NCBI RefSeq assembly: GCF_003324165.1
Contig: NW_025407894.1
Span: 1 to 56,178, forward strand
DNA length: 56,178 bases
Direction of reading: 5' to 3'
From: Naegleria lovaniensis
Taxonomy: Eukaryota; Heterolobosea; Eutetramitea; Acrasida; Naegleriidae
Positions within the stretch are counted from its first letter, which is position 1. Each line of letters begins with the position of its first letter. Below the pieces are notes generated by a model. It saw only the letters and a program-made list of their open reading frames with translations. It ran no database searches and was not told where the DNA came from. Below, in pieces: positions 5,151 through 29,910 of this stretch. A program made the translations under genes and the position numbers.

Positions 5151-5873
5151 ATGGCACCAAAGCGGAAAACTCGTTCATCACAACAACGAACACCCTCATC
5201 GAAAAAGGGAAACGCATCATCAGGTACAACTTCATCTCCAAAAGCAACAACACCAAAACGGAGTTCTCATCCAGCTATCAATGTGGACGAAGAGGACGAT
5301 GAAGAATTCTTGAATGATCAAACAACTACATCCAGTACACTTGCTGTCGGAGGAAACACTCCGAGTACAAATAAATCATATGAGGACGCTAAACAATGGG
5401 AAGCAATGAGAGCTAGACTTGCACTACTCGAGAGAGATAATTATTTTGATAGGAAAGGAGGCAGTGCAGGAAAGTTTAGTATCATTTCTGGAGGTGATGA
5501 TGAAGAAGGTGTATGGGATACAACCAATGATGTCACCAGACCGAAAAACAAGTCCAAGAAAAAAAAGAAGGATACTTCCGAAGATGTGGAACCATCATCA
5601 AAGAAGAAAAAGACTGAGTCTAAAGACTCCAAAAAGAAATCTGCAAAGTTCGTTCGGAGGAAATTAGACAATGTATTATTGAATATGGACAAAGTTCACT
5701 TGAATTCACATCCGAATTATTTTTCGATTGAAGCATCTCCTTCCATTTATCCACCAAGAAAGTATTGTTACACCACAGGATTCTTAGCAAATTATACATG
5801 TCCACACACAGGAAAGCATTTCATTAATATTCCAGCCTATGAGCATATCAAAAAAGATTTTCAATTGGAATAA
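5151..5873 (+). CDS. YL1 C-terminal domain protein, Ies6/INO80C-like chromatin subunit
   Basis: Single exon, 240 aa, ATG after TTTAAAA. The N-terminal ~170 residues are Lys/Ser-rich with runs of KKKKK and acidic patches, typical of a nuclear disordered tail. The C-terminal ~45 residues match the YL1_C module: PSIYPPRKYCYTTGF, then YTCPHTGKHFINIPAYEHIK. This module is found in Ies6/INO80C (INO80 remodelling complex) and YL1/Vps72 (SWR1/SRCAP). The absence of the long YL1 H2A.Z-binding region favours Ies6. In other eukaryotes Ies6 with Arp5 docks on INO80 and helps nucleosome sliding. No intron is visible. Nuclear location is inferred. Confidence 0.75.
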   Translation: MAPKRKTRSSQQRTPSSKKGNASSGTTSSPKATTPKRSSHPAINVDEEDDEEFLNDQTTTSSTLAVGGNTPSTNKSYEDAKQWEAMRARLALLERDNYFDRKGGSAGKFSIISGGDDEEGVWDTTNDVTRPKNKSKKKKKDTSEDVEPSSKKKKTESKDSKKKSAKFVRRKLDNVLLNMDKVHLNSHPNYFSIEASPSIYPPRKYCYTTGFLANYTCPHTGKHFINIPAYEHIKKDFQLE

Positions 5874-13730: not shown

Positions 13731-14060
13731 CACTGGAAAGAAAATAGGAAGAAAGACAAAGGACACTGCCACAACAATTTAATTTTGGCCACTTTCACAA
13801 ATTGCCAATCCCTCTCGCAGATTTTTCTAAAAATTTGTGCGCATCTCAAAAAAAATGCATTAAACTGCTTGTGCTTGGTGGCCCTGGCCACTTTAAAACA
13901 AAATTCGCAACTTCTCATCAGTAGTGTAGTATTTGCTCCTTCGTGATCATTGTCTTCATCACAACAACCTAGTAATTCTCATCTATAACCTGAACGACTT
14001 TTCTTGTACATCGACTCGATTCAATAATAGTAATAATAGTAATAATAATCATCAATCATC
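13731..14060. other. intergenic, divergent promoter region at the left edge of the compact block
   Basis: 330 nt between divergent genes. It contains two ggccacttt-type motifs (near 13787 and 13887) and an aat/agt trinucleotide run at about 14024-14050 directly before the next ATG. No gene is seen, and I could not find a clear terminal repeat marking an element end. Confidence 0.45.
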
Positions 14061-14744
14061 ATGGCCAAAACATCAAACAAACGTGTCAACAACAAGAGCA
14101 AAAGTACAACAAAAAAGAAACAAGCAACCAAAAACAAGAAGCAAACAACCAACGTTCGTGATCTACAATGGCTTGCGTATGATGGTAGTAATTCTTCATC
14201 ATATAGAGATGTTTATCAAATCATGCCTCAAGCAAATCCAGTTGGAAGAGAGCGTATTAGGATGGCTGCTTGTTTGGCAATGTTTGCTCATTCTGCTGCT
14301 TTCTTTCTTGGTCATTCTTTAGATCCCTATTACACCAAGAGATACCAACGAGGAATCAAACTCGGTTGTTTGAATCCTGATTACTTTGTAAGATATTTTG
14401 GCAACTCTTCAGCAAGATATATCACCAAGCATCAGGTTTTGAATTTTGATAATCATACTCGTAGGATTGAATGTATTGGGTTTGCCTTCGATAATTTTGA
14501 AGATATGCCAGGATTGAATTGTGGGAAAACTTATGCTTTAAGAGGATTTGTTGCTCAAAATCCAGTTCGCGTCTTCGATCATGATATCAATCAATATGTG
14601 ACAATGCATTTTGATTTTCAATATCGAATGTATTTCACAAAACTCGTCTTCTATTGTAATACTGAATCATGGATGGTCACTGTTGATTTTGATTGGACAA
14701 TTGAAAGATATAACGAAATGAATGATACATGGGATTCGGTTTAA
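14061..14744 (+). CDS. orphan protein with basic N-terminal tail
   Basis: Single exon, 227 aa, ATG directly after a CATCATC run. I do not recognise a family. The first ~32 residues are almost all Lys, Thr, Asn and Gln (KKKQATKNKKQTT), like a histone or nucleic-acid-binding tail. The rest looks globular: RERIRMAACLAMFAHSAAFFLGHSLDPYY is a helix-rich part, then a strand-rich region with aromatic residues and two Cys (LNCGKTYAL, YCNTESWMV). There is no signal peptide. It ends 1 nt before the 3' end of the convergent gene at 14746. It is the first gene of a compact block with the H3-like gene and a transposase-like gene. Confidence 0.55.
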   Translation: MAKTSNKRVNNKSKSTTKKKQATKNKKQTTNVRDLQWLAYDGSNSSSYRDVYQIMPQANPVGRERIRMAACLAMFAHSAAFFLGHSLDPYYTKRYQRGIKLGCLNPDYFVRYFGNSSARYITKHQVLNFDNHTRRIECIGFAFDNFEDMPGLNCGKTYALRGFVAQNPVRVFDHDINQYVTMHFDFQYRMYFTKLVFYCNTESWMVTVDFDWTIERYNEMNDTWDSV

Positions 14745-14745
14745 T

Positions 14746-15165
14746 TTATTGATCACTTTCTCCTTCAAATTTTAATGGCACTATATATTTAAATAAATCA
14801 CATTGAAGTTTAGTAATATCAACATTTGCAAATAGTTTTTTGAATCGACTGTGCTTGAAAACATCTTCATTAAGAAGCAGCAAATACAAATTATGTGCTG
14901 TCATATGTCTTGTTTTGTTTGACCAGCCAAAAAAAGGTTGAAGATAAGATATTTGTGAAGGCGTTAATGTGATGGTAAAATTTACATGTTCAACCATCAT
15001 CTCCGATTGTCGTTTTTTCAAATAATGAACAAAAGATCGAGGATTTGAAAATAAAATATCGGAAAGCTCGCTGTTGGGTATATATAAACTTTCGAAAAAC
15101 GTATCATCATCTAATGGATCATCAGGATGAAAGTAATAAATTAATTTCAGATCATACAGGTCCAT
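14746..15165 (-). CDS. orphan small protein
   Basis: Single exon, 139 aa, ATG at 15165. No family recognised. The sequence is rich in Phe, Leu and Tyr with an acidic start ([15 protein letters not shown]) and a mid-part, [19 protein letters not shown], that could be a helix-turn structure. There are no cysteine motifs and no signal peptide. Its start codon overlaps an ATG on the opposite strand (palindrome CATG, 15163-15166). The gap to the likely H3-like ATG at 15242 is 76 nt, so these two genes must share a very short divergent promoter. Confidence 0.5.
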
Positions 15166-15241
15166 GTTGAGCGTCGATTTTTTTTGCCACGTATGCAGTC
15201 ACTTAAAATATTTATCGAACTTCAGTTTGGACGCACAAAAA

Positions 15242-15664
15242 ATGACCCAACAGTCCGCACCTGAATCATCATCAAAAAAACAACCATCAATAAAACAACG
15301 TCAAGCCATCAAACAGCCTCGGAAGCAAAATAAACCATCAACACGCAAACCATTATCTGGAGGAATTAAAAAGCCACACAGATACAAACCTGGTACAGTA
15401 GCACTACGAGAAATAAGAAAATTTCAAAAAAATACGGAATGTCTAATCCCAAAAACAAATTTCAGACGACTTGTTCGTCAAATAGCATCGGATTATAAGC
15501 AAGATTTAAGATTCCAACTCAACGCTTTGAATGCTTTACAAGAAGGAGCAGAAGATTTTCTTGTTAGGATTATGCAGAATAGCAATGAATTGGCAATACA
15601 TGCCAAAAGAGTTACTATCCAACAAAAAGATATCATTCTTGTTCAAAAATTGTTCAGTTATTAA
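15242..15664 (+). CDS. divergent histone H3 variant
   Basis: 140 aa from the ATG at 15242 (context CAAAAAATG). An in-frame ATG at 15164 would add 26 residues, but the tail length from 15242 matches H3 better. The core is unmistakably H3: [19 protein letters not shown], then [30 protein letters not shown] and [12 protein letters not shown]. Loop 1 has the canonical length, so it does not look like CenH3. The tail lacks the ARTKQTARKS start and any ARKS site, so the K4, K9 and K27 contexts are missing; it is instead Gln/Lys/Ser-rich. The residue matching Cys110 is Glu. It would pack DNA with H4, probably in special chromatin. Its setting among orphan genes suggests acquisition or element cargo, which is inference. 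Confidence 0.9.
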
Positions 15665-15667
15665 AAA

Positions 15668-16369
15668 ATGAGTTCAAACATCACCACATTCACTAACGTC
15701 AATCATTCCGACGGTTTGATTGAAATAATTTTAGGTAAATCTGTTGAAACAATTATTGTCAACAACGATTTCTATTATCGTTTTCAAGATCTCAAACACA
15801 AATATGAATCTTATTCCAAGTATTCCAAAAATAACGATGTCGTTAAAATTGGACGAAAAGGGCTTACCTATGTGTGTTTGGAGATCGCTCTAGATATTAT
15901 AACAAAAGAGGACAATTATCGGTCCCATTTAATTAACTATCTCACCCAACAACAATTACAACGATTCCAAAACAATTCAGAAACGATGCAACAAACATCA
16001 CAAACAAGTACTTCTTTTTCCAACATTTCACAAGACATTCCTAATGCTCCATCTACATCCTCTCCAACAAAAAGAAAACAAACTCTGCAAGAATTGGATA
16101 AACAAAACAAAACAAACGCAACACCATCTCTCTCTATCGCGAAGCCAAAAGTGTTGACTAAACGATCACGCAATACAGAACATGATATTAAAGAAATAAC
16201 TAAAAAAAAAAAGGAAAGTAAAAGGATAAGAGAACAAGAAATTGACACCTATTTAAATAGACTGATAGAACAATATGATAAAGAAAAGAAAGACATTGTG
16301 AAATCCAATATATCAAAAGTCAATCTAGTGGCTGCTTCAGAAACACGAGATATATATAAAAGTCAGTAA
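15668..16369 (+). CDS. orphan protein immediately downstream of the H3-like gene
   Basis: Single exon, 233 aa. The ATG at 15668 comes 3 nt after the H3-like stop codon, too close for a normal separate promoter and 3' UTR. The first ~95 residues look globular: IEIILGKSVETIIVNNDFYYRFQDL, then VVKIGRKGLTYVCLEIALDII. The part from YVCLEIAL to HLINYL loosely recalls KilA-N or similar small DNA-binding domains, but I would not assign it. The C-terminal ~140 residues are Lys/Ser/Thr/Gln-rich with basic clusters (KKKKESKRIRE) and a coiled-coil tendency, consistent with a nuclear protein. Translation may depend on a shared transcript with the H3-like gene or on a promoter inside it. Confidence 0.5.
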   Translation: MSSNITTFTNVNHSDGLIEIILGKSVETIIVNNDFYYRFQDLKHKYESYSKYSKNNDVVKIGRKGLTYVCLEIALDIITKEDNYRSHLINYLTQQQLQRFQNNSETMQQTSQTSTSFSNISQDIPNAPSTSSPTKRKQTLQELDKQNKTNATPSLSIAKPKVLTKRSRNTEHDIKEITKKKKESKRIREQEIDTYLNRLIEQYDKEKKDIVKSNISKVNLVAASETRDIYKSQ

Positions 16370-16447
16370 GCAAAGCAAAGGGAGACGAAGTACTAGTATG
16401 CAGAAAATTTTTTGAGCATAAAAATAAATAATAAATAATAAAGTCTA

Positions 16448-18592
16448 ATGACAAAATATGCAGAAAATCCCTCAAACACCAATCCTTTTCAAAGGATGGA
16501 TGTTTGGCGAGTTACAAACCCATTAGTTTTCCTCCAATTAATTCCAAACTCTTGTTGTTGTTTACAATGTAGAAACACAGAGGCAATTCTTTCTCTTGCA
16601 CAAGCAATAAGTTCTTCCAATCACGTCTCCGATAACGAAAAAGAAACATTTAGAAAGCTAAAACAAATGTCGTTAAAACCAGTCTCTTTAACCAAACAAC
16701 TGAAGGTAAAAGATGAACTATGTTGCTCCAACAAAGCTTGGAAAGAGCATATTTTTTCGTTGGGACTCAACGATATTCTTAAGGCGGATCTTAAAGACAT
16801 AGAAGGACAAGTAACGAATGCCTTAGTTGAATATTTTGGAATACAACATGTATTAAAAGGATTTGTGATGAAACTGGAACCTGTGATCATTGCAGCTGTA
16901 AAAAGTCACCTGCATACCGTGTTTCTAAGAAAACAACAACAACGTCCTGTAAATGAAGAGTTACCTGATTCTTTGGTAATCAAGATGAGTATGGATGGAA
17001 GAAAATTTGACGGACTTCAGACGGTGGTTGTAACTCTTTCAGTTTTAAATCTTACAACATTTGGAACTCAAGAGCGAAGAAATGTTTTTCCTGTCGCAAT
17101 GTATATTGGTAATGAACAGGAAATTATGGATTATTGTAAAAACTTTGCACAACAAGTCGAAAAGATTTCGAAAGATGGTATACAAATAACGAAAAAACAA
17201 GCAGACGCTTCGTTAAACAAAGAAAATTTCAACATGAAAGTGACTATAATATGGGTTAGCGATTTAAAATCTCTGTCTTACGTGAGCGATTTATTAGAAG
17301 GCAATATGTTTTGTTTGAGATGCGCATGCTTGAAATGTAATAGCTTAAATGGAACCTCCATGCCAAGGTTTTTAAATCACAAGTTTGGTATTGATTCATC
17401 CAAAATTTATATTTGCATTCTCCACGCAGAAGAACGTATTACGGAGCATTTGGTAAAATGGTCCCTTACAAAAGAAGAATATGAAAAATTAGTGCTTGAA
17501 AGAGTAAGAAAACTACCATGTTTTTCATCTTCCTTTACATTTCATTCGACCCAAGTTAAAAATACATCAGACGCAGAAGAAGATCCAGTATTAGAAAACG
17601 AGGACTATAAATTCATGTTGACTGGAGGAATGGTTGAAGTTATCTCACAGCATTACAAGACAATTTTTGAAAATGTTGTTACGGATGAAATGATGGAAAT
17701 TTGGGATCAGTGGATTATTGTTCGTCAATGGCTTAAAATGACAAATGATGAGCGAGCAAAGAAAACAGAGGAAGAGCTTTTAGAATTTTATCAATTATTA
17801 ACTAAATGGCATATCAACATTGTAGAACTACGATCAAGCGTTGGAGTGCTTCCGTATTACATACACATTATTGTGCATCATGTAAAAGAATTTTTCGATG
17901 AAATTGGTTCTCTGGTTCCTGTTTCCAATGAAGCAGTAGAAGGTTCTCATCAACATGACCATTTTATAACAGAAAGAGCAACAGCAAAAGGTAAAAAGAA
18001 ATACTTTTTCGATGAATATGTGAAAGATAGTAATACTGTGTGGAACGAGATGAGTATTTATACAGAGCCAGACTTGTCTATTGATGAGTTTAACAATATA
18101 TTTAAATATGAAAAACATATTCCAAGAAAAGAAGACAAAAGAGAATGGAATCAATTGTTCCAAATTTTCCAACTGATTGTGAAAAAACTTAGAGTATTAT
18201 TTCTCTCTTTCAGGTCTGATGAAGATACTACATTTGAAAGAATAGAAGAAAGAAGTGGTGACAAGGTTAAGGAGAGATGGAATAGCTTCAATGATCTGAA
18301 AATCAAGGATCGAGTAATAATTGAAAGTGATCAATCAACTGCTACTAATTTACAGTCTTCTCGTTCAGAATTAGAGAAATCTAAGCTGGATCTTTATTTA
18401 CAGACAAATGTTCAACAGGAAGAAATGTTTCAGGACGAAATGAGTGATTTTGAAGATGATGATGGAGATGAAGAGATGACAAATAATGAACAGCTATTCG
18501 ATGAACTAAGTGATTATGAAGACGGTGATGAAGAGATGGAGTTTGGAGAGGAAACTAGTATTCCTGACGACATAGTGGATTTTATTTTTTGA
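16448..18592 (+). CDS. DDE-transposase-like protein with zinc-binding insertion
   Basis: Single exon, 714 aa, ATG at 16448. The layout resembles a family of RNase H-like transposase proteins scattered through protists, Glomeromycota and invertebrates. A first acidic motif is KMSMDGRKFDGLQ (~180-192) with a following strand VVVTLSVLNL. A second is IWVSDLKSLSYVSDLL (~270-285), directly followed by a zinc-like CLRCACLKC and then ICILHAEERITEHL. A late segment, YYIHIIVHHVKEFF then SNEAVEGSHQHDHF (~475-510), carries the candidate catalytic Glu. The C-terminal ~60 residues are extremely acidic. I infer D, D, E from order and spacing; catalytic competence is untested. It may be a mobile-element enzyme or a domesticated derivative. 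Confidence 0.5.
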   Translation: MTKYAENPSNTNPFQRMDVWRVTNPLVFLQLIPNSCCCLQCRNTEAILSLAQAISSSNHVSDNEKETFRKLKQMSLKPVSLTKQLKVKDELCCSNKAWKEHIFSLGLNDILKADLKDIEGQVTNALVEYFGIQHVLKGFVMKLEPVIIAAVKSHLHTVFLRKQQQRPVNEELPDSLVIKMSMDGRKFDGLQTVVVTLSVLNLTTFGTQERRNVFPVAMYIGNEQEIMDYCKNFAQQVEKISKDGIQITKKQADASLNKENFNMKVTIIWVSDLKSLSYVSDLLEGNMFCLRCACLKCNSLNGTSMPRFLNHKFGIDSSKIYICILHAEERITEHLVKWSLTKEEYEKLVLERVRKLPCFSSSFTFHSTQVKNTSDAEEDPVLENEDYKFMLTGGMVEVISQHYKTIFENVVTDEMMEIWDQWIIVRQWLKMTNDERAKKTEEELLEFYQLLTKWHINIVELRSSVGVLPYYIHIIVHHVKEFFDEIGSLVPVSNEAVEGSHQHDHFITERATAKGKKKYFFDEYVKDSNTVWNEMSIYTEPDLSIDEFNNIFKYEKHIPRKEDKREWNQLFQIFQLIVKKLRVLFLSFRSDEDTTFERIEERSGDKVKERWNSFNDLKIKDRVIIESDQSTATNLQSSRSELEKSKLDLYLQTNVQQEEMFQDEMSDFEDDDGDEEMTNNEQLFDELSDYEDGDEEMEFGEETSIPDDIVDFIF

Positions 18593-18661
18593 CCGTCTAA
18601 TTTGAAAAGGTAGAGAGTTGAGAAAATTTGCTGTTGAGCTTTGGAAATTCGACGGTCAAAA
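18587..18661. repeat. inverted repeat at the stop codon of the transposase-like gene
   Basis: ttttgaccgtc at 18587-18597 pairs exactly with gacggtcaaaa at 18651-18661; with mismatches the match extends inward (aattt..aaa) and outward. The left arm includes the TGA stop. It could be a terminator hairpin or one end of an element; I found no matching end at the left of the block. Confidence 0.6.
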
Positions 18662-19136
18662 TAAAGAGCCGGTTTTAATGAACGTTCAAAATTTAAAAAT
18701 AAAAAAATATTTTTAAAACCTTGGAAATTCCACTTCCAAATTCTGGAAGCGCATGAATTGGCAATTTCGGGTCCTAAATTGTTGTGCATAGGACGGCTGT
18801 TGAACACAACGAAATGTTGTTGTGCTGTGATTGTTGTTGTGAACAATTTGTTGGTTGTTGTTGTTGGGATTTCTGAACTATCAATAATTTGGATGGAAAA
18901 AGAAAGAGAGTCATTGAATTCGTCCATGCTGATTTTTTTGAGTGTTTTTTTTGTTTGGCTCTTGAAATTGAATAATAAATCGGTTCTTTTTATGACAGTT
19001 GACTGTTGAGTGTTCTCAACTCAATTTCGTAACAACAGTCTGGTTTTCTTGTAAAATCAAAAGAACCAATCGTCACAAAAGCACCAAAAATTAAAGGGAG
19101 TTCAATACGATTACAGGGTTTAAGCTATCCAAAATA
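18593..19136. other. intergenic with a possible truncated minus-strand coding remnant
   Basis: An ATG at 18927 on the minus strand opens about 60 residues of host-like coding sequence (MDEFNDSLSFSIQIIDSSEIP, then Thr/Asn/Gln-rich) down to ~18740. There it runs into an AT-rich segment and then antisense transposase sequence. It may be the 5' end of a gene cut by insertion of the block, or chance. The rest of the region shows no gene. Confidence 0.25.
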
Positions 19137-25230: not shown

Positions 25231-28200
25231 TTAAATGTTGTCGGAGTTGAGTTCGCCAAGCTGATTGCTACATGTTTCCCAAGCAGTTGCAAATTTTGCA
25301 GTTTTGGGTTTAATTATATATCCTCTAGCCTTCTTGAGTACAGTAGAACTGTTCCAAGTGGCGTTTTTGTAACAACTGCCAACATAAGCAGCGAATGAGA
25401 GATATATTTCATTTAGCCAATCAGTCAAGGCTGGGGGAGATAGGTCTAGTTGTTGGAGAGATTCGTCTTTGATACTACCATTCCACTCCATTGGAATACA
25501 AGAGAGAGAATGGTTAGAGGGAAGTCTGACAAGCGGGGCGTTGAATTTGAGGGAACTATTGTCCCATTTTGTGTATAATGATTTGATTTCTGGGCTACAC
25601 ATGGCGCATGAGGTGAATACATGTTCCCAGTTGGCTTTGGTGTTGCAAATGTGGCAATTAGGGTAATCTTTTCCGAAATTTCTAAGGATTTCTGCTTTGT
25701 GCAGGTGAGCAAATAACAGTCGTTGCTGGAATGGTTTGAGTGAATAATTGTTCCAAAAGGAGATGGTACATGGATGCCAGATTCTATTATGGTCTAAGGT
25801 TCCAAGGCCAGAAATGCTCATGGTTGATCTATCACTGTTTAGCAATTCAGTTCTAGGGTCGACAGGGGTTTCGTATTCATTGACAAATGAATATCGTTCA
25901 TCAATGTATTGGAGAGACCAATTATTTTGAGCAGCAATATTTTTCACGTGGTTCCAAAATGGTTCGTTAAAAGTAGTATCTTTCCAAGCAGCCAAAGCTA
26001 TATTTTTGGTGATGGAGGATGAGGAATTGAATAATCTAACTGCTGTGCAAATAGGTTCAATAGAGAATAAAATAGAGGGGCGAGTAATACCAAGACCCCC
26101 AATTTGTTTGCAATTAAAAACGACTGATTTTGATAATGTGTAATCTAATCCAATAGCCTTTCTGATAAAATTAGCAACCATAATATCTGCTTTGTCTAGA
26201 GAATTCTTACTGATTCCATTGAAGCTACAGGCATATCTAGGCAATGATATAATTTTAGACATAATTGTAGTGGTGATACTGTTGAGATATAGATTAGAAG
26301 TTTTAGCTGATGCAAGTCGATTCGAGATTTTGTTGACTGGGTTATCAGAGGACCAAGAAAGATTATCCTTAAAGGTACATATACCCCCAAGGTATTCAAT
26401 AGAAGTAGACGAGGCAATTGTATCCTGTCCAATAGTGACTAGGGCTTTAGATAGTTTAGATTTAGCTGTAATAGCTAAGAGCTTGCATTTCTTGGGAGCT
26501 AAAGCGAGTCCTATTTTCTTTAACTCTCGGCCGAGGCTTTTAAGAGAGGAATTCATTTCAATCTTAGTATTAGCTATCAATAAAATATCATCGGCATATA
26601 ATAATAAAAGGATAGTAATATCAAATATTTGGACTCCTTTTAGTTTTTCTTGTATATTAGTTGAGGAGTTAATATAGAGATTAAACCATGCTGGACTTGA
26701 AGGGTCGCCTTGTGGGACTCCAACATTCGCATCGAAAGGGGAGGATAGGAATCCGTTAACTAGTACTTTCATAACGCTATTGGAAATCATGGATGTCAAG
26801 AGATTAATGACAGAGCTACGGAAACCATGTTTTTTGAGAATGCTGATAAATCTTTTATGGATTACTGATCCATAAGCATTTTTGATATCTAAAGCCATAG
26901 CGAATACTTCTTGTTTGTGCTGACATTTGTATGCTAGGGCAGTCCGAAGATTGATAAGGTGCTCTAATGTTGAGCCTTTTTTCATGAATCCTCGCTGAGC
27001 AGTATGGATTAAATTAGCCTCTTCAAGGATATTCATGAATTGTTTGTTGATAATAGAAGAAAATAGGCGATAGATCACAGATAATACTACTATAGGTCTA
27101 AAGTCTGATAATTTTGTAGGCATATTGACTTTGGGTAATGGGAGTAGAATACCAATACCCAATTCTTTAGGAACCATTTCACTGTCAATTGTGTGATTGA
27201 TACATTTTGCAAGTACTTGGAGCGAATTGTTGTCTAGAATTTTCAACAACGGCACCGAGATATTATCATAGCCAGCCATGGAATTTTTTGTTTTAGAAAT
27301 AACTTTACCCAACTCTTTGGCAGTGATATGTTGGAATTTCCATTGGGCTACAGTATTATTTTTCTTGATTTCCGGAAGGGTTTTAGTCACTTCTTGTTCT
27401 GTGTTAAACATGGCTGAAAAATGATCTACAATTATCGAGTTATGGTTACTTTGGACTACATTGAGTATAGAAGAACTGACTAATTCTTTTCTGAAGGCAT
27501 AGGAGTACGGTTGTTTAGAGCTAAGATTGTTAATTCTATTCACGAAGACCCGTTTACGGTCAGCCAATAGAGATCCAATAAGCTTGTTAAGCGAGGCTTT
27601 AGCTTCCTCTAATTTAGCCTTAATATTGTTGAGGCTAAAATTATTATTCAAGAACTGGCTGGTGACAGTAGAGACATATTTACGCTTATAAAGATACTGT
27701 TTCAAATCAAAAATGATCGTCTGAAATTGTCTAACATTACGATTATCAGTAATCAATGAAGGCTTGTCGGTGCTAGGAGAGCCATATTTCTTCACAATTT
27801 TAGCAAGGGTATTTTGGGCTTCTAAGAGAGTGCTAGGGTTGTCCATAGCAAAATCGTTATTAATTTCCTTCATCTTGGATTGCAGAGTTTTAGGATGAAT
27901 AATATATTTGTTGAACTTTTCTGGGAAGTCTAAAATAGGGTTACTGGGAAAGGAGATAGTTAAAAGTTTGTGAGAATAAGCAGTAGAAACATCATCTACA
28001 TTAGAATAATCATTGTGGGAAGTAATAATATGGTCCGGGCGAGAAAAACCATGAGAGTATTTGTTGCGTTGAGAGAACGAAGGTGTGTTTGGAATGGGAA
28101 CAACATCAAAGAGCTTCAATTTGTCACATTGGTCAATTAATAGTCGCTCATGGGCAGCATAGGATACCTTATTGAATGTTTTAGTATTGGCATTCAAGTC

Positions 28201-28683
28201 TCCCAATATGACAATACGTTCACCATGCAAGACCGCTGTTTGAGCAGCAATGTTGATAATATTGAGAGCCTTATTCATGAATTCTAATTTGTTTTTGTTA
28301 GCCGGGCCATACCAATTGAAAATACGGACCACACCTAGGCATTTATGTTCCAAAATGACTTCTGATAGTCTGCCTTGAATATGCTCGATGAATTGGAGTA
28401 CCTTAATAAAAGGTGACGGTTTGACAATAGTAGCAATTCCTGCTCCATTATCTCCCTCGGTGGCGTTGGAAGTATAGACTAAGTAGCCACGAAAGAAGGA
28501 CCTGAAATACCATACATTCCAATAGTCTTCCGTACTGGATTTTAAATGAGTTTCCTGGATATTAAGGATATCCAGTTCATATTTTCGGGCTAGGGTAAGT
28601 AATTGAGATTGTTTTACCCAGCCAACTCCTCCGAAATTAGCAGTACCTAAATTGAAGGAGTTTCTTATAGAATGAGAGGCCAT
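25231..28683 (-). CDS. LINE ORF2: endonuclease and reverse transcriptase
   Basis: 1,150 aa, ATG at 28683 overlapping the ORF1 stop. The EEP endonuclease at ~1-225 shows the expected residues: Glu44 in NIQETHL, Asn123/Tyr125 in NWYGPANK, Asp162/Asn164 in LGDLNAN, and Asp217-His218 in SRPDHI. The reverse transcriptase (~480-760) has the DFRPIVVLSVIYRLF block, QRGFMKKGST, the first catalytic Asp in ALDIKNAYGSV, GVPQGDPSSP, and the YADD box at ~695-698. A C-terminal CxxC...H...C knuckle (CHICNTKANWEHVFTSC) lies near 1010-1026. These are all the activities needed for target-primed reverse transcription. No RNase H domain is seen. The frame is fully intact. Confidence 0.95.
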   Translation of the reverse strand: MASHSIRNSFNLGTANFGGVGWVKQSQLLTLARKYELDILNIQETHLKSSTEDYWNVWYFRSFFRGYLVYTSNATEGDNGAGIATIVKPSPFIKVLQFIEHIQGRLSEVILEHKCLGVVRIFNWYGPANKNKLEFMNKALNIINIAAQTAVLHGERIVILGDLNANTKTFNKVSYAAHERLLIDQCDKLKLFDVVPIPNTPSFSQRNKYSHGFSRPDHIITSHNDYSNVDDVSTAYSHKLLTISFPSNPILDFPEKFNKYIIHPKTLQSKMKEINNDFAMDNPSTLLEAQNTLAKIVKKYGSPSTDKPSLITDNRNVRQFQTIIFDLKQYLYKRKYVSTVTSQFLNNNFSLNNIKAKLEEAKASLNKLIGSLLADRKRVFVNRINNLSSKQPYSYAFRKELVSSSILNVVQSNHNSIIVDHFSAMFNTEQEVTKTLPEIKKNNTVAQWKFQHITAKELGKVISKTKNSMAGYDNISVPLLKILDNNSLQVLAKCINHTIDSEMVPKELGIGILLPLPKVNMPTKLSDFRPIVVLSVIYRLFSSIINKQFMNILEEANLIHTAQRGFMKKGSTLEHLINLRTALAYKCQHKQEVFAMALDIKNAYGSVIHKRFISILKKHGFRSSVINLLTSMISNSVMKVLVNGFLSSPFDANVGVPQGDPSSPAWFNLYINSSTNIQEKLKGVQIFDITILLLLYADDILLIANTKIEMNSSLKSLGRELKKIGLALAPKKCKLLAITAKSKLSKALVTIGQDTIASSTSIEYLGGICTFKDNLSWSSDNPVNKISNRLASAKTSNLYLNSITTTIMSKIISLPRYACSFNGISKNSLDKADIMVANFIRKAIGLDYTLSKSVVFNCKQIGGLGITRPSILFSIEPICTAVRLFNSSSSITKNIALAAWKDTTFNEPFWNHVKNIAAQNNWSLQYIDERYSFVNEYETPVDPRTELLNSDRSTMSISGLGTLDHNRIWHPCTISFWNNYSLKPFQQRLLFAHLHKAEILRNFGKDYPNCHICNTKANWEHVFTSCAMCSPEIKSLYTKWDNSSLKFNAPLVRLPSNHSLSCIPMEWNGSIKDESLQQLDLSPPALTDWLNEIYLSFAAYVGSCYKNATWNSSTVLKKARGYIIKPKTAKFATAWETCSNQLGELNSDNI

Positions 28684-28685
28684 TA
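28681..28685 (-). promoter_or_regulatory. TAATG stop-start overlap between ORF1 and ORF2
   Basis: On the sense strand the ORF1 TAA and the ORF2 ATG share one A (TAATG). The same arrangement supports termination-reinitiation in the insect LINE SART1. By analogy ORF2 would be made by reinitiation, at a lower level than ORF1. Confidence 0.8.
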
Positions 28686-29879
28686 AAGGGAATGTCGGCC
28701 CTTCTTATGCCCACTTTTACTCTTGCGAGTAGTAGTGCCTAAGAGAGCGTTGACTTTTTGGTTAATTTCTTCAATAGCTTTGTTGATCTTATTAAAGCCT
28801 TCAGTGACCTTTTTTCCAGACCAGACAGCCATTTCCTTTGTCAATTTTTGGAGAGCTGATGACATTTCAGACATTTGTTTTTCAACAGCTTCCATTCTGT
28901 GACTGATGGAGTTGGCAACTCTAGTAGAGAATGAGAGGTTTCTGAAACTATGATTTCCAACTTGGACGAACTTGGTAATGTTATTGGTGATTTGATCCTT
29001 TTTGACACCAACAACAGCCACCTTATTAGCCAACTCGATACTCTCAATCTTGACTTTCCATTGGGAACTAATGGCACCCTTGAGTTTAGGAAGATCTTTT
29101 TCTTTACCGTTAAAGGCGATACGGAAACGAGAGATATCTGTTCTCATTTTGGAAAGCTTAAATTTCTTCAAATGATTGGCTGGTAATTCAATATTAGTAC
29201 CAATAGCCCAAAACTCTTGATCATCTATCTTGCTAAAATTGATGTTGTTGATAGAAGTACCAAGAGTTGAGATAATAGAGTGCATATTAGTCTTATCTAA
29301 GTCTTTGTCGACCTTATAACGGAATGACGTTTTGACGGTTTGAGGAATCATGGTTAGCTTGGACTTAGCACCAGAAGATATTGCTTGGTTTGCCAATTTG
29401 CGCGACTTGAAGAAGAGAATAATGCACTCCAATTCACTGACAACTCTACTACCGTACAACGCATCGGCATTCATTGCGACGGTTGCAAGGACTTCTTCGA
29501 CAGAGTTGGTAGTAAAGGCCACCACTCTGAAGAGTTTATGATGTCGCTTCAGTTTGGTAGAATGGTCGTCGGTCATGGCCGAGGTACTAAAAACTGAGAC
29601 GCCAGAGGTTGTAGTAATATTAGAGACCTCCGGTTGCGACAACATAGGAGAGTTGCATACAGTGCTGGGTTGTATTACCGACAAATTGGCTATATTGACG
29701 GAGGACGGAGTTTCTAAAATTTCGTTTTCCATCTCCTCTCTCAATTTATCATGTGCCGATTTTTGAGCAGAGAGAGATTTGTTTGCAGTATGCGGGCGAT
29801 CAGCGACCTCTTTGATAGAGGCGTGATGGCGAAGGTGATAAGTGTCTTCATCGCCGAGGGCGGTTTGGTTTTCAGACAT
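28683..29879 (-). CDS. LINE ORF1: putative RNA-binding protein
   Basis: 398 aa. The start is the ATG at 29879. A further in-frame ATG at 29894 lies inside the flanking target-site duplication, so it belongs to the host site and not to the element. The middle, ~135-310, has two strand-helix units that could be RRM-like folds (LFRVVAFTTNSVEEVLATV; FRIAFNGKEKDL). A long coiled coil covers ~325-380 (MEAVEKQMSEMSSALQKL). The C-terminus is basic (RKSKSGHKKGRHS). This order of RNA-binding fold, coiled coil and basic tail fits ORF1 proteins that trimerise and coat the element RNA. I see no CCHC knuckle in ORF1. Confidence 0.85.
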   Translation of the reverse strand: MSENQTALGDEDTYHLRHHASIKEVADRPHTANKSLSAQKSAHDKLREEMENEILETPSSVNIANLSVIQPSTVCNSPMLSQPEVSNITTTSGVSVFSTSAMTDDHSTKLKRHHKLFRVVAFTTNSVEEVLATVAMNADALYGSRVVSELECIILFFKSRKLANQAISSGAKSKLTMIPQTVKTSFRYKVDKDLDKTNMHSIISTLGTSINNINFSKIDDQEFWAIGTNIELPANHLKKFKLSKMRTDISRFRIAFNGKEKDLPKLKGAISSQWKVKIESIELANKVAVVGVKKDQITNNITKFVQVGNHSFRNLSFSTRVANSISHRMEAVEKQMSEMSSALQKLTKEMAVWSGKKVTEGFNKINKAIEEINQKVNALLGTTTRKSKSGHKKGRHSL

Positions 29880-29890
29880 TTTTTCGAAGA

Positions 29891-29910
29891 CCATTCGTTC
29901 GATCAAAAAA
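29891..29910. repeat. target-site duplication, right copy
   Basis: Identical over 20 nt to 25122-25141. Only 47 nt separate it from the ATG of the TBC gene. Confidence 0.92.

Follow-up and report, generated by a model that had tools for sequence, protein, structure and literature searches.

A histone H3-like gene inside a repeated DNA transposon of Naegleria lovaniensis

A histone H3-like gene in the genome of Naegleria lovaniensis is enclosed by the inverted ends of a 5017 bp DNA transposon that is present, with its H3, at four places in the genome. What had been described in the earlier note as an orphan-gene block around a divergent H3 is this one transposon, and the H3 is very probably cargo of the repeated mobile element. 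Purifying selection acts on the core of the encoded histone; its tail shows no visible constraint. As an explanation of the whole we put forward, tentatively and with a little less than even confidence, that a transposon of the CACTA-Mirage-Chapaev-Transib (CMCT) type took up an H3 gene and retained it as a functional component, by which the element would resist silencing.

The window, the whole stretch of DNA that was analysed, comprises 56,178 nucleotides and is contig C72 of the 97 contigs (30,690,286 bases) that made up the genome searched. The features of the element, in window coordinates, are as follows.

13770-18786, no strand: whole DNA transposon copy, 5017 bp, with a matching unit on C36, C46 and C13
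13770-13781, plus strand: left terminal inverted repeat CACAACAATTTA, 12 bp, ends compared across copies
14061-14744, plus strand: 227-aa protein with a basic N-terminus, the family's partner protein, akin to a 229-aa protein in cousin C31
14746-15165, minus strand: 139-aa orphan protein, the second gene for which no counterpart was seen in the C31 cousin
15242-15664, plus strand: histone H3-like gene, 140 aa, identified from Pfam, solved-structure and genome matches
15668-16369, plus strand: split transposase gene, first part, a 233-aa open reading frame (ORF) that ends in codons derived from the replacing repeat
16359-16572, no strand: replacing repeat stretch that splits the transposase, absent from C46 and C13
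16448-18592, plus strand: split transposase gene, second part, a 714-aa ORF that begins with 41 codons derived from the replacing stretch
18775-18786, minus strand: right terminal inverted repeat CACAACAATTTA, 12 bp, ends compared across copies

The whole-genome search found four copies of the element that bear the H3, on C72 (the window), C36, C46 and C13. The C36 copy differs from that of the window at a single base in 5017 (99.98% identity), and the C46 copy, which aligned in two pieces, is 99.8% identical; the C13 copy is diverged, with 80% and 75% identity in its two halves. On C86 there is a fifth copy, truncated by the end of the contig to its 3′ part. Each full copy (four of four) has the CACAACAATTTA inverted ends on both sides, in the form 5′-CA..TG-3′, and encloses four genes, for the 227-aa protein, the 139-aa protein (on the opposite strand), H3 and the transposase. 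Comparison of the loci showed that the DNA flanking the four copies is unrelated; a putative target-site duplication, AT, was seen at C36 and C46, and none was seen at C72 and C13. Since the H3 gene sits inside a unit repeated at four loci with unrelated flanks, we take it for element cargo and not for a host variant beside a transposon. Carriage on mobile DNA, one of two readings offered earlier, is thereby borne out; the other, a host variant used at one life stage, is at odds with four copies inside one mobile unit.

Two further loci of the window lie outside the element. Positions 25231-29894 on the minus strand hold a pair of neighbouring ORFs (1150 and 403 aa); motifs in the larger suggest to us the endonuclease and reverse transcriptase of a non-LTR retrotransposon. 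Positions 5151-5873 on the plus strand hold a host-type gene with a YL1_C domain by Pfam, which we take to mark a chromatin-remodelling subunit family.

The transposase-like gene said to adjoin the H3 is real, but it is interrupted in the window. It forms an uninterrupted frame in C46 (950 aa) and C13 (942 aa) and is split in the window and C36, where about 143 bases, as in C46, have been swapped for about 215 bases of repeat. This repeat is found elsewhere in the genome: at least 58 of the 65 window DNA matches fall on the replacing stretch alone, and 37 of these span most of its larger part. Among the 59 listed genome matches to the 714-aa piece of the window, 5 belong to the same family and 23 to cousins at 23–28% identity; the remaining 31 touch only the first 67 residues, the site of the replacing repeat. 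The replacing stretch (16359-16572) resembles failed gap repair or filler more than a clean insertion.

Residues D419, D508, C525/C528, H709/H714 and E734 are invariant in four transposases (those of C46 and C13 and of the cousins on C31 and C41), and from the alignment we infer which of them are catalytic. They form a DDE triad with C(2)C and H(4)H between the second D and the E. A C(2)C and H(3–4)H arrangement between the second D and the last E, together with 5′-CA..TG-3′ ends, is given for the CACTA-Mirage-Chapaev-Transib clade in passages of PMC12730594. A target-site duplication of 2–5 bp, also expected of such elements, would be represented by the AT at two of the four copies. Judged on these sequence features, the element is a CACTA/RAG1-like (CMCT-type) DNA transposon. 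The Pfam family Transposase_21 (CACTA) gave 13.9 and 15.9 bits, under its curated cut-off of 28.6, and a transposase profile run against solved structures had no matches.

The gene for the 227-aa protein occurs at four genome places only, all within the element, and that for the 139-aa protein likewise has four copies, all within the element, its other matches having E values of 0.027 or worse. A candidate relative of the latter on C52 (E = 0.027) was set aside, as its frame resembles a membrane protein and the match is probably due to chance. Neither protein matched a Pfam family, and their predicted structures are poor (mean pLDDT 36.7 for the 227-aa and 54.4 for the 139-aa protein). The remark that the H3 lies among genes of no recognisable host function thus stands for these two as regards Pfam families, with the amendment that the block is a single transposon.

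The only cousin copy with both ends read is a transposon of about 4.9 kb at C31:74232-79140, with ends CACCACAAACTACGCC and a duplication of AGA or AGAGA. It has two large genes, for a 1035-aa transposase and for a smaller protein of 229 aa, a relative of the 227-aa protein by pairwise blastp (E = 1e-6) whose gene occupies the corresponding position in its element. Nine C31-type loci share 99.5–100% identity over the stretch compared, from which recent activity of this cousin follows. The H3 is absent from the whole C31 element and from its near-identical copies; cargo of cousins was examined in the whole C31 element and in the C41 flanks. Among the matches listed (29 histones and 23 cousin transposases), no histone other than the element's own four H3s was closer than 10 kb to a cousin transposase, and of roughly two dozen places with a related transposase just one is known to belong to an H3-bearing family. 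Judging by its relative in the cousin, the 227-aa protein is probably part of the basic kit of the transposon family; H3 and the 139-aa protein appear to be additions, since the cousin has a transposase and a 227-aa relative without them.

That the H3-like ORF encodes a histone is clear from its Pfam match (PF00125, Histone; 115.6 bits, E = 2e-33, cut-off 26.4) and from a search of solved structures, where H3 chains top the list and the best match is a histone H3 at E = 2.1e-40. The core aligns with canonical H3 free of gaps except in the final few residues and includes the motif AIHAKRVTI. The earlier description of a well-kept core agrees with this: Pfam recovers the full H3 fold, and the core motifs then quoted are found in the ORF. 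The description of the tail needed trimming. In both element lineages ARTKQTARKS and the second ARKS are indeed absent, the window ORF having TRKP in the K27 region, and so the K4, K9 and K27 contexts are gone; the K36/K37 context is retained and a PRKQ resembling the surroundings of K18 is also present, so that the loss of tail sites is not total. The three canonical host H3 genes (on C29, C6 and C35) all have ARTKQTARKS and ARKS.

The H3 gene is identical at the nucleotide level in C72, C36 and C46 (hence 100% amino acid identity), and the C13 protein is identical to that of the window at 91% in the genome search and at 89% when aligned. Host H3s follow in the list of matches at 54–61%. Its core retains R40, Y41, R49, R69, R72, R83, K115, R116 and T118, as well as H113, D123, L126, K56, K79 and K122; its substitutions include R63P, E105Q, D106N, L109E, R128Q, R129K and R131F. 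We take these kept and changed residues to have roles in DNA, H3-H3′ and chaperone contacts. The element H3 could plausibly pair with H4, with altered chaperone contacts, and R63P together with the changes at 105, 106, 109 and 128–131 could weaken assembly or chaperone binding.

The alignment gives loop 1 of the element H3 the canonical length, with no insertion, so that the longer loop of cenH3 is lacking. Besides its canonical genes the host has several divergent H3-like ones: C27:451319-451723 resembles cenH3, with a loop longer by two residues and a long N-terminus; those on C7 and at C35:278107 seem to be interrupted by introns; and that on C41 is a tail variant.

Selection was measured by comparing the C46 and C13 copies, with the H3 divided into a core of 96 codons and a tail of 43 codons. 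The core differs by 6 replacement changes against 9 silent ones (pN/pS 0.17, p = 7.6e-4), which shows purifying selection. In the tail, 11 replacement changes and 1 silent change (pN/pS 3.4) reveal no visible constraint, and these counts do not prove positive selection. The gene as a whole has pN/pS 0.47 (p = 0.043), and its neighbours have 0.28 (227-aa protein), 0.12 (139-aa protein) and 0.26 (transposase). Silent divergence of the H3 is low, with dS of 0.12 against 0.39 for the 227-aa protein (p = 6e-4), 0.50 for the 139-aa protein (p = 1e-4) and 1.26 for the transposase (p = 7e-20). The H3 stretch could have been exchanged between the lineages, or it could be under extra constraint at the DNA level. 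The low dS makes a long retention of the H3 less secure; it leaves the inference of core constraint unaffected.

The H3 and transposase ORFs are only 3 bases apart in both element lineages. In the window (15662-15670) and in the C13 copy the H3 stop, AAA and the transposase start (TAA AAA ATG) follow one another in one frame, on the strength of which a shared transcript for the two genes is proposed; they may be expressed as a single transcript, and readthrough of the single stop codon would yield an H3-transposase fusion.

The core of the element H3 shares 60 of 96 positions (62%) with host H3, 61 with yeast H3 and 57 with human H3. In a tree of 12 H3 sequences the two element H3s group at 100%, which is the only firm placement that the tree gives them. 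At five sites the host H3 differs from the human and the yeast protein alike; the window H3 matches the host at three of these (K53, Y78, N87) and the C13 H3 at four. At F54, Q120 and L130 the element H3 has the yeast state, where the host has the human one. The residues shared at host-specific sites favour capture from a host-like H3, which on balance is probable and not firm.

An origin from or with viruses, such as had been entertained earlier by analogy with large amoeba viruses, found little to sustain it. Alignment scans of viral contigs, with two peptide patterns for each protein, turned up nothing related to the transposase or to the 227-aa protein, and the single-H3 query likewise found none; the H3 alignment query hit only a distant triple-histone contig, L072, at 40%. 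Pfam recognises no capsid, packaging ATPase or polymerase family in the four element proteins; two of these match nothing in it and might conceal a capsid of an unfamiliar kind. Contig L072 has, at 379-1449, a 356-aa ORF with apparently several histone-fold stretches, the last of them H3-like, and a small histone-like ORF alongside.

How might the H3 serve the element? In the mechanism that we propose, the transposon would have acquired the gene, probably from a host-like H3, and retained it as a working part. The protein would be produced together with the transposase, pair with host H4 and enter nucleosomes on or near the element. Nucleosomes of this kind would escape the customary marks of silencing, leaving the element open to its own transposase. 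That the usual marks would not be taken is suggested by a tail without the K4, K9 and K27 contexts (K36/K37 being kept) on a core with most of its DNA-contacting residues. A silencing system for the tail to evade probably exists, given reports that 5mC in Naegleria is confined to transposons (in passages of PMC12695648) and that N. gruberi has an E(z) orthologue (likewise from parts of PMC9018016). Against an anti-silencing role it counts that no tail feature shows the mark of selection, as the tail ratio above makes plain. The low silent divergence of the H3, the changes that could weaken assembly or chaperone binding, and the single H3-bearing family known among the related transposases weigh on the same side. 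The strongest form of the proposal, a cut-and-paste transposon that builds unmarkable nucleosomes on its copies from its own modification-resistant H3, we hold to be possible though doubtful.

Other accounts of the same H3 have to be weighed. It might be a transposition factor that wraps or bends the element ends, or that, as a readthrough fusion, tethers the transposase to nucleosomes at donor or target sites. The in-frame junction seen in both lineages would suit this, as would a constrained core with an unconstrained tail; but the C31 cousin and its near-identical copies lack an H3, so this transposase type needs none, and the constant 3-base gap may merely reflect that no indel has occurred so far. 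We consider it unlikely. Only slightly more doubtful is a mere passenger, a host H3 caught by chance and of no use to the element. The retention time may be short, given the low silent divergence between lineages, the tail is free of constraint, and useless histone fragments are described in the Culex Helentron (in passages of PMC4067079). A passenger is, however, hard to reconcile with the core pN/pS of 0.17, with a gene intact in all four copies that reach that part of the element, and with a fold kept despite divergence down to 60 of 96 core identities with host H3.

It is rather improbable that the H3 acts in trans against host chromatin, disturbing the whole genome and so loosening silencing, by analogy with what has been proposed for bracovirus H4. 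Lone viral histones are believed to be incorporated into nucleosomes of the host (in the portion of PMC9145170 on viral histones), and four copies might supply some dose; yet a virus-like gene set is lacking, and a low-copy resident element would profit little from host damage. Very improbable is a small integrated virus, with the 227-aa protein as a capsid with a basic arm and the H3 as a packaging histone. The compact gene order, the basic N-terminus of the 227-aa protein and the existence of single viral H3s are in keeping with it, but the ends and the conserved residues are of transposase type, no viral Pfam family was matched, the viral contigs held no relative in scans by a few peptide patterns, and the 227-aa relative in the cousin sits in a two-gene transposon. 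Finally, that a host H3 variant merely adjoins, or was disturbed by, a transposon insertion deserves almost no credence: a full-length H3 fold is what one would expect of it, but the copy structure contradicts it, since the H3 sits within one unit found at four loci whose flanks are unrelated.

Of these readings we favour, with the reserve stated, the H3 as a working part of the transposon. A small DNA transposon with an intact, core-constrained H3 unites two themes, anti-silencing cargo of transposons and the carriage of histones by viruses. If the H3 enters chromatin, the element offers a natural experiment on which residues of the H3 tail transposon silencing requires, in a lineage distant from plants, fungi and animals; if the proposal is true, here is a genomic parasite bringing its own chromatin. 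Possible anti-silencing cargo of transposons is already known, and the distinctive point here is a histone as the cargo. Our searches of openly licensed papers showed no other transposon with an intact histone, the nearest case being the Culex Helentron fragments.

The element shares with CMCT transposons (CACTA/EnSpm-Mirage-Chapaev-Transib) the 5′-CA..TG-3′ ends and the D, D, C(2)C, H(4)H, E residues; unlike them it scores below the curated CACTA cut-off and carries an H3 and the 139-aa orphan. With cenH3/CENP-A and other host variants the element H3 has in common the H3 fold and a divergent tail, whereas loop 1 of the cenH3-like host gene on C27 and of human CENP-A has two more residues. Studies of Vandal elements and VANC reportedly point to transposon-encoded regulators that act against silencing. 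TET/JBP dioxygenases on fungal KDZ, EnSpm, Plavaka and other transposons are likewise thought to counter epigenetic silencing, and SET methyltransferases on HarbingerS and MuDR are transposon cargo thought to be anti-silencing (both in passages of PMC12730594). The cargo of those systems consists of enzymes or sequence-specific proteins, whereas that of the element is a nucleosome subunit. Single viral H3s are described, in the portion of PMC9145170 on viral histones, from Manila clam xenomavirus, Dishui Lake phycodnavirus and Sylvanvirus, the tail of the xenomavirus H3 being divergent, with K27, K36 and K37 possibly present. The element resembles these in bearing a lone H3 on a parasite genome and differs in that the carrier is a transposon; its core identity with host H3 is 62% (60 of 96), below the 73–87% reported there for the fold. 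Helentron-Cq-32A of Culex also has histone sequence in a transposon, namely broken fragments of H4 and H1 genes that are 83–84% like their parents (according to passages of PMC4067079), whereas the element H3 is intact, diverged and constrained in its core.
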